A DNA stretch of 33,772 nucleotides from Betaproteobacteria bacterium RIFCSPLOWO2_02_FULL_65_20 (lineage in GTDB: Bacteria > Pseudomonadota > Gammaproteobacteria > Burkholderiales > SG8-39). The translations under genes and the position numbers were made by a program. Below are positions 12,734 to 15,310 of this stretch, piece after piece (position 1 is the stretch's first letter; every line of letters starts with the position of its first letter). The DNA is taken from positions 1-33,772 of the forward strand of contig MEQZ01000151.1 of the NCBI GenBank assembly GCA_001770425.1. The letters are read 5' to 3'. The notes under the pieces are model-generated. The model did no database searches and was not told the origin of the DNA. It saw only the letters and a list, made by a program, of their open reading frames with translations.

Positions 12734-13396
12734 TTGGAAACGGACATCATCAGCTTCAGCCGGGTGTACAAGCGCTACCCCGGTGGCTACGAGGCCCTGA
12801 AGGACGTCAACTTCACCGTCGCGCCGGGGGAAATGGTCTTCATTACCGGGCATTCCGGCGCGGGGAAAAGCACACTGCTCAAGCTCATTGCGGCGATCGA
12901 GCGGGCGACCTCGGGCACGGTACTCGTTGCGGGTCAGAACGTGTCCTCGATACGCCGCCCGGCGATCCCCTTCCTGCGGCGCAACCTCGGCCTCATTTTC
13001 CAGGACCAGAAGCTGCTCTATGACCGCAGCGCATTCGACAATGTGATGCTGCCGCTCGTGGTCACGGGCCACTCCTGGCGCGACGCGGCGCGACGCGCCC
13101 GCGCCGCGCTCGACAAGGTCGGACTCCTGGATCGGGAGCGCGCCTACCCGATCGCGCTCTCCGGCGGCGAACAGCAGCGCCTGTGCATCGCGCGCGCAGT
13201 GGTCAACCGGCCGAACATCCTCATCGCGGACGAGCCGACCGCGAGCCTGGACGCCGAATACGCGGACGCAATCATCGCCATGTTCCGCTCGTTCAACCAG
13301 GTCGGCGTCACAGTACTGATATCCACTCACGATGACCGTCCGATCCGCAAGCTCAATCCGCGCGTGCTCACGCTGCACCATGGGAGCTTGGCGTGA
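12734..13396 (+). CDS. ftsE: Cell division ABC transporter ATP-binding protein FtsE
   Basis: FtsE is the ATPase of FtsEX, which activates septal peptidoglycan hydrolysis through the divisome. All ABC motifs are present: Walker A GHSGAGKSTLL, Q-loop IFQDQKLL, signature LSGGEQQRLCIARA, Walker B ILIADEPTASLD and the H-loop STHD. No ATG fits the family N-terminus. TTG at 12734, one base after the ftsY stop, gives 220 aa (E. coli 222) beginning METDIISFSRVYKRYPGG. An ATG at 12698 inside ftsY is the alternative. No Shine-Dalgarno is visible, so coupling to ftsY translation is likely. ftsX begins within its stop codon. Confidence 0.93.
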   Translation: METDIISFSRVYKRYPGGYEALKDVNFTVAPGEMVFITGHSGAGKSTLLKLIAAIERATSGTVLVAGQNVSSIRRPAIPFLRRNLGLIFQDQKLLYDRSAFDNVMLPLVVTGHSWRDAARRARAALDKVGLLDRERAYPIALSGGEQQRLCIARAVVNRPNILIADEPTASLDAEYADAIIAMFRSFNQVGVTVLISTHDDRPIRKLNPRVLTLHHGSLA

Positions 13397-14301
13397 GGGC
13401 CTGGCTGCGCCATCACGCGCTGAGTTTCGGGCAAACAATGCGGCGGCTTGCCGCGAGCCCGTTTGCCTCGCTGCTGAACGCGCTGGTCATCGGGATCGCG
13501 CTTGCCCTGCCCTTGGGCGGCTACGTGCTTCTCGCGAACCTGCAGCAGTTCGCACGCGGGCTTGCCACCGATGGCCAGATCAGCGTGTTTCTCGCACCCG
13601 AGGCCTCCAAGTCCGATATCGCGGAGATCGACCGACGGCTGCGCGGGACGCCGGGCGCAGCAAGGGTAGAGTTCGTGGGCCGCGAACAGGCGCTTGCCGG
13701 GCTCAAGCGCGCGCCCGGAATGGCCGAGGTGATGGCAACCCTGCGCGATAACCCGTTGCCGGACGCTTTCGTCGTGACCCTTGCGGCGAGCGAACCCGAA
13801 CTCTCGCGGCGCCTGGAGCAGGAAATCAAGGGCTTTCCGAGGGTAGCTCACGTCCAGGCCGACTCCGCCTGGGTGCAGCGGGTCAGCGGCCTGCTCCGAT
13901 TCGGTCGCACGGCCGTGGCGCTTATGGCCACACTGCTCAGCTTTGCGTTGGTGGCCGTTACCTTCAATACCATCCGGCTCCAGATCATGACCCAGCGCGA
14001 CGAAATCGAAGTCTCGAAGCTGATCGGTGCCACCAACGCCTACATCCGCAGGCCGTTCTTCTACCTGGGCGCCTTTCAGGGAATGTTGGGAGGGCTGGCT
14101 GCCTGCGTCATCGTCGATCTGGCGATCGTCGTGCTCAACCGCGACCTCGCCGGACTGGCGACACTGTATGGGTCCGACTGGATACTTCAGCTGCTTGGTT
14201 TGACTGACGGCCTTGCCGTCCTGGCATTCGCCGCTGCGCTCGGATGGCTTGGCACATTTGTGTCAGTAAGCAAGCACTTATACAAAATCGAGCCCCGGTA
14301 G
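13393..14301 (+). CDS. ftsX: Cell division protein FtsX
   Basis: FtsX is the inner-membrane partner of FtsE. The 302-aa protein has the FtsX layout: a cytoplasmic N-terminus, one membrane segment (about residues 27-50), a periplasmic domain (about 55-170) that engages hydrolase activators, then three more hydrophobic segments (about 172-195, 220-245, 270-290) with the conserved MTQRDEIEVSKLIGATNAYIRRPF loop. It starts at GTG overlapping the ftsE stop (GTGA). rpoH follows after a 157-nt gap that carries a CIRCE operator. Confidence 0.96.
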   Translation: MRAWLRHHALSFGQTMRRLAASPFASLLNALVIGIALALPLGGYVLLANLQQFARGLATDGQISVFLAPEASKSDIAEIDRRLRGTPGAARVEFVGREQALAGLKRAPGMAEVMATLRDNPLPDAFVVTLAASEPELSRRLEQEIKGFPRVAHVQADSAWVQRVSGLLRFGRTAVALMATLLSFALVAVTFNTIRLQIMTQRDEIEVSKLIGATNAYIRRPFFYLGAFQGMLGGLAACVIVDLAIVVLNRDLAGLATLYGSDWILQLLGLTDGLAVLAFAAALGWLGTFVSVSKHLYKIEPR

Positions 14302-14363
14302 AGGCATTGTAGAAAATACGCAGGCCCTGGCGGATCCGCAGTTCTCCGAAACTATTTCGTCTA

Positions 14364-14390
14364 TTAGCACTCCAACTCGTCGAGTGCTAA
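14364..14390 (+). promoter_or_regulatory. CIRCE operator (HrcA binding site) upstream of rpoH
   Basis: The inverted repeat TTAGCACTC-N9-GAGTGCTAA is a perfect match to the CIRCE consensus. It ends 68 nt before the rpoH ATG. A plausible promoter overlaps it (TTAGCA, 18-nt spacer, TAAAAT at 14388-14393), so HrcA bound here would be expected to block transcription of rpoH. hrcA itself is not in the window. Confidence 0.95.
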
Positions 14391-14458
14391 AATAGAACCA
14401 TGGTTTAGCGGGGCCGGAAATCGGCCGGCGTTTGATACGAACGGAGCGAAAAAGAGCT

Positions 14459-15310
14459 ATGAGCAACGTTTTTACATTGCCGGTTCCATCGGCGGTCGGC
14501 AGCCTGGATAGCTATGTGCAGGCGGTGAACAGGTTTCCGCTGCTTTCGGCCGACCAGGAAACAAGGCTCGCGCGCAGATTCCGCGAAGAGCAAGACATCG
14601 GGTCGGCGCATCAGTTGGTGTTGTCCCATCTGCGCGTCGTGGTTTCCATCGCGCGCGGGTACATGGGATACGGGCTTCCCCACGCGGACCTGATCCAGGA
14701 AGGCAATATCGGCCTCATGAAGGCGGTCAAGCACTTCGACCCGGACCGTGGCGTGCGCCTGGTGTCGTTCGCGATCCACTGGATCAAGGCGGAGATTCAC
14801 GAATTCGTGCTGCGCAACTGGAGGCTGGTCAAGGTTGCGACGACCAAGGCGCAGCGCAAGCTGTTCTTCAATCTGCGCAGCATGAAACCCGGTCTGGGTT
14901 CCCTCACGCCCGCCGAGATCAAGTCGGTCGCCTGTCAGCTCGGCGTAAAGCAGGAGGACGTGGTCGAGATGGAAACCCGGCTCGGCGGACAGGACATCAC
15001 GCTGGAAGGCGGCAGCGACGATGAGGATGACCATTTCGCGCCCATCGCCTACCTCCGCGACGCGGGCGCAGAGCCTTCGCAGGTTCTGGAAGCAGACCAG
15101 AACGAACGGCTGCGCGCCAGCGGGCTGGAGACTGCGCTGGCGAGCCTGGACGCGCGCAGCCGACGCATCATCGAAGCGCGATGGCTACGCGAAAAGGACG
15201 CGGCGACGCTGCACGACCTCGCCCGGGAGTTTGGCGTTTCGGCCGAGCGCATCCGCCAGATCGAAGCCAAGGCCTTGGTCAAGATGAAAGGCATGATGCC
15301 CTCTGCCTGA
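14459..15310 (+). CDS. rpoH: RNA polymerase heat-shock sigma factor sigma32
   Basis: A 283-aa sigma32 (E. coli 284 aa) directing transcription of heat-shock genes. Region 2 is seen in DLIQEGNIGLMKAVKHFDPDRGVRLVSFAIHWIKAEI. The sigma32-specific RpoH box QRKLFFNLR is at residues 132-140. Region 4.2 ends with DLAREFGVSAERIRQIEAKALVKMK. ATG 14459 is preceded by AAAAGAG and begins with MSNVFTLPVPS, so the TTG-started longer ORF is rejected. A CIRCE operator lies upstream, and likely sigma32 targets (hsp20, hslVU) are within 6 kb. The gene converges on sco. Confidence 0.98.
   Translation: MSNVFTLPVPSAVGSLDSYVQAVNRFPLLSADQETRLARRFREEQDIGSAHQLVLSHLRVVVSIARGYMGYGLPHADLIQEGNIGLMKAVKHFDPDRGVRLVSFAIHWIKAEIHEFVLRNWRLVKVATTKAQRKLFFNLRSMKPGLGSLTPAEIKSVACQLGVKQEDVVEMETRLGGQDITLEGGSDDEDDHFAPIAYLRDAGAEPSQVLEADQNERLRASGLETALASLDARSRRIIEARWLREKDAATLHDLAREFGVSAERIRQIEAKALVKMKGMMPSA

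Follow-up and report, generated by a model that had tools for sequence, protein, structure and literature searches.

In the window that we analysed (33,772 nucleotides, contig C151 of a 3.59-Mb betaproteobacterial draft genome in 257 contigs, 87% complete), the gene of the heat-shock sigma factor sigma32, rpoH, is preceded by a perfect CIRCE operator, whose two arms share bases with the -10 elements of two predicted promoters, one of the sigma-E (envelope-stress) type and one of the sigma70 (housekeeping) type. We observed that both promoters keep a conserved register relative to CIRCE throughout the class (Gammaproteobacteria as defined by GTDB, with the betaproteobacteria included), and that the bases added to the operator are absent from the CIRCE sites of groESL. 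On this comparative evidence, we consider it likely that throughout the class this conserved region serves the repression of rpoH by HrcA, with CIRCE overlapping the -10 elements of both promoters. The HrcA/CIRCE system controls groESL and dnaK in Bacillus subtilis and in many bacteria. Operator and repressor family are identical in the present case; the target, however, is the sigma32 gene, and the bases that form the -10 elements at rpoH are missing from the CIRCE sites found at groESL in the same group.

The features of the rpoH locus are collected in Table 1. The 27-bp CIRCE match has no mismatch in its 18 specified bases and lies in the intergenic region downstream of ftsX, 68 bp before the rpoH start codon. 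The perfect motif TTAGCACTC-N9-GAGTGCTAA occurs in a single copy within the window and in 0 of 100 dinucleotide shuffles, and its presence at rpoH is confirmed as far beyond chance. A flawless CIRCE between ftsX and rpoH had been proposed in an earlier note on this DNA, and both the operator and the identity of the two flanking genes were borne out. The interval given there, 14364-14393, does contain CIRCE, but its last three bases (AAT) lie outside the operator and complete a -10 hexamer. As is expected for a member of an HrcA/CIRCE regulon, the operator matches the consensus without mismatches, it is located in the promoter or leader region of a heat-shock gene, it is conserved in relatives, and hrcA is encoded in the same genome. 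No forward terminator was found between ftsX and rpoH, so that read-through from ftsX into rpoH is possible. An RNA thermometer in the rpoH leader was considered and rejected, the fold of 14400-14490 being no better than that of shuffles (z -0.33). The closest named relatives of the encoded RpoH are betaproteobacterial, with a best identity of 73%.

Table 1. Features of the ftsX-rpoH region, in window coordinates.
Feature	Position	Strand	Basis
ftsX, upstream neighbour of rpoH, same strand	13393..14301	+	over curated cut-off
Sigma-E-type -35, GAAACTA, 5/7 to GGAACTT, 16 bp before CIRCE	14348..14354	+	motif comparison
CIRCE operator (putative HrcA binding site), perfect, TTAGCACTC-CAACTCGTC-GAGTGCTAA	14364..14390	+	consensus match, conservation before rpoH
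Weak sigma70-like -35, TTAGCA, 4/6, 18-bp spacer, within left CIRCE arm	14364..14369	+	promoter search
Sigma-E-type -10, TCCAA (fits TCNNA), 16-bp spacer	14371..14375	+	motif comparison
Probable sigma70 extended -10, TGC-TAAAAT (TGCTAAAAT)	14385..14393	+	promoter search; conserved at rpoH, absent at groESL
Probable rpoH ribosome-binding site, GGAG	14443..14446	+	sequence
rpoH, heat-shock sigma factor sigma32, 283 aa	ATG 14459..15310	+	TIGR02392, 405 bits vs cut-off 323

The predicted sigma70 promoter is built on the right arm of CIRCE, which supplies TGCTAA, the first six bases of an extended -10 element consisting of TGN and a TATAAT-like hexamer conserved in place. Among the betaproteobacterial rpoH sites, the bases that follow the operator (xAT) show A in 68 of 77 and T in 75 of 77 cases. 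In the class sample, xAT completing TGCTAAxAT was present at 71 of 98 rpoH sites vs. 0 of 16 groESL sites (p ~2e-8). Transcription from this promoter is predicted to start at about 14399-14401. The earlier note had named an rpoH start that leaves CIRCE outside promoter and leader as an argument against its reading; as far as the sequence can tell, CIRCE is not so placed.

The position of the promoter bears on a different mode of action, in which CIRCE would work mainly in the mRNA or leader, as at groESL, with transcription starting upstream and the operator serving as a roadblock or in mRNA stability and not by covering a -10 element. Such a role would be in keeping with the groESL sites of the same group, where CIRCE follows the promoter, and with part of the Burkholderiaceae, where the sigma-E -10 lies instead 5-8 bp before CIRCE and the operator would thus fall in the leader of that promoter. 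We regard it as improbable, given that the xAT extension is specific to rpoH sites and that the sole forward promoter-like match in 14250-14480 is the extended -10 overlapping CIRCE.

The sigma-E-type promoter is joined to the left arm of CIRCE, the end of which forms the TC of the -10 element (TCNNA), and a GGAACTT-like -35 pairs with this -10 at about 16 bp. At 62 of the 98 sites of the class, the first base of the -35 lies 16 or 17 bp upstream of CIRCE; other positions are far less frequent. The fifth -10 position, which falls in the nominally free CIRCE spacer, is an A at 72 of 98 rpoH sites as compared to 2 of 16 groESL sites (p ~5e-6). As CIRCE itself dictates the TC, it is the -35 register and this fifth-position A that count as independent evidence. 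The full motif was found in 56 of 80 upstream regions vs. 3.5 expected by mononucleotide shuffling, an expectation that ignores the TC given by CIRCE; chance or base composition as the source of the motif was ruled out both by the shuffles and by its position. A sigma-E-type promoter as a group property of these rpoH regions has strong support from the sequence comparison. The copy in the window, GAAACTA-N16-TCCAA (14348-14375), is a weaker example, with a 5/7 -35 and a TC fixed by CIRCE. In Achromobacter (loci L057 and L061), the sigma-E -10 lies immediately next to CIRCE.

HrcA might also repress rpoH at the sigma70 promoter only, the sigma-E-like motif being a non-working promoter in this organism. 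The weak match of GAAACTA and the 22 of 98 CIRCE-bearing rpoH regions in which the criterion used detected no sigma-E motif would fit this explanation, which nevertheless appears unlikely to us, because the -35 register is conserved class-wide and the free CIRCE spacer shows the constraint that a sigma-E -10 would impose. Moreover, an RpoE-type sigma factor is encoded in the genome (TIGR02939, 326 bits, cut-off 236), and the related rpoH (fam) promoter of Bordetella bronchiseptica is transcribed by SigE in vitro (PMC3490749). The putative sigma-E promoter would be of the same type as E. coli rpoHP3 and B. bronchiseptica fam, where rpoH is driven by an RpoE-type sigma factor. Unlike in the window, CIRCE is not mentioned for the sigma-E-dependent rpoH promoter of B. 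bronchiseptica in the available text of that report (PMC3490749).

The association of CIRCE with rpoH proved to be general. In a set of 80 rpoH loci from named betaproteobacteria, 79 of which were readable and one too short upstream, CIRCE with up to three mismatches precedes rpoH in 76 of the 79 loci and is perfect in 51 of these. A family-balanced sample of the class, mostly with one or two genomes per family, was screened for rpoH, CIRCE and hrcA, and the rpoH upstream region was read in 120 genomes. CIRCE at rpoH was found in 91 of 97 genomes with hrcA vs. 7 of 23 without it (Fisher p ~4e-10), and CIRCE anywhere in the genome in 128 of 130 vs. 10 of 55 (p ~1e-30); these p values assume independent genomes, and family balancing reduces kinship though it does not remove it. 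Several of the 7 genomes that have an rpoH CIRCE and no hrcA are incomplete drafts. By this comparison, the proposed control of rpoH by HrcA is well supported. That the present operator, which matches all 18 specified bases and belongs to a genome encoding HrcA, is a relic or a chance match with no present role is very improbable, considering also that CIRCE at rpoH is conserved in most sampled families and that the chance expectation is near zero. Its loss in some lineages that keep hrcA would be compatible with such a relic. These are the three loci without an rpoH CIRCE (L009, L016 and L034), from Nitrosospira/Nitrosovibrio-type genomes that retain hrcA as well as CIRCE before groES, so that only the rpoH branch is missing; these cases count against our full model, as do the 7 genomes with CIRCE at rpoH but no hrcA, and the 5/7 sigma-E -35 and the weak sigma70 -35 of the window. 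The CIRCE-less rpoH regions of Nitrosospira type retain a perfect GGAACTT with TCTTA. Upstream of its rpoH, L034 has an almost complete left arm (TTAGCGCTC) in the expected register, possibly belonging to a decayed CIRCE.

The view of the rpoH CIRCE as something unusual did not hold, since it is the rule among hrcA-bearing relatives and has a precedent in Geobacter sulfurreducens, for which HrcA control was predicted from a CIRCE before rpoH (Rodionov et al., 2004; PMC545781, Table 8). That site is likewise perfect and is placed at -51 from the start codon. G. sulfurreducens, however, is a deltaproteobacterium, its site is a computational prediction, and in the available text of that study an overlap with promoters is not described (PMC545781). 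CIRCE before rpoH is therefore already known in kind, and the class-wide composite layout of operator and promoters is possibly the new part. A study by Permina and Gelfand from 2003, which by its title is said to deal with the HrcA regulons of beta- and gammaproteobacteria, may already list CIRCE at rpoH. In our literature search, which did not reach this study, no description of CIRCE overlapping rpoH promoters was found.

The hrcA gene, whose absence the earlier note would have taken as evidence against its proposal, is present in one intact copy on contig C141 (PF01628, 8.6e-69), adjoining ORFs that by eye resemble NAD kinase and ferrochelatase; grpE is on the same contig. The search for further CIRCE sites, also suggested there, gave no second site with two or fewer mismatches across the whole draft genome. 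The groES gene was not found in the draft assembly, and groEL is truncated by the start of its contig (G000:C169:1-1068, L116), so that a key HrcA target is missing from the assembly; this may be why rpoH carries its only strong CIRCE. One CIRCE-like site with three mismatches, CTGGCACTC-N9-GAGTGCCAA (G000:C135:2748-2774; L002:1501-1527), is intergenic, with a DAHP-synthase-like ORF on one side and an AAA ATPase ORF on the other. It was rejected as a second genomic CIRCE, before the AAA ATPase, and is probably due to chance, since matches of its core class occur at about the chance rate (4 vs. 5 in the reversed control).

HrcA is known to be kept active by GroEL (review, PMC6032397). If this applies here, HrcA kept active by free GroEL would sit over the -10 elements of both promoters, holding rpoH expression low; once unfolded proteins occupy GroEL, HrcA would fall off and rpoH would be transcribed by sigma70 or, when the envelope is also stressed, by sigma-E. 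Most likely HrcA occludes both promoters, and a shortage of chaperonin would then relieve rpoH transcription. The two-tier HrcA/sigma32 circuit proposed in the earlier note is thus plausible but incomplete, as envelope stress would feed into the same control region. Its further claim, that all sigma32 genes are gated by HrcA, goes too far in view of the sigma-E-type promoter in the same region, the possible read-through from ftsX and the post-transcriptional control to which sigma32 is normally also subject.

The textbook picture of sigma32 control derives from E. coli, which lacks HrcA. In our hrcA search, E. coli was accordingly negative among the control genomes and, considering that the layout described above occurs in most hrcA-bearing relatives, it looks like the exception. 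With some reserve, we lean towards the view that the ancestral rpoH region of the class was a single module of about 46 bp, in which the HrcA operator, the sigma-E -10 and the sigma70 -10 share bases and which would combine GroEL/HrcA and envelope-stress signals, the E. coli layout being a remnant after loss of hrcA and CIRCE. Should HrcA repress rpoH in the majority of hrcA-bearing families of the class, two heat-shock systems that are usually called alternatives would form one hierarchy there; chaperonin availability would be sensed through the transcription of rpoH, with envelope stress acting through the same site.

Some further observations were made on individual loci. In betaproteobacterial groESL regions (L089-L110), CIRCE directly follows an element of the type CTTGAA...CCCTATAA, sigma32-like by eye, and the promoter-operator layout thus differs between groESL and rpoH within the same genomes. 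In one genome (L058), the hrcA match is in two pieces with an internal stop (G018:C2:27746-28403), which may reflect a broken gene or an assembly error; CIRCE at rpoH and another CIRCE persist in this genome despite the split match. Finally, upstream of rpoH in L217 (G034), the perfect CIRCE is immediately preceded by another CIRCE-like repeat (ttagcagtc...gagtgctaaaat), the two forming an apparent tandem operator.
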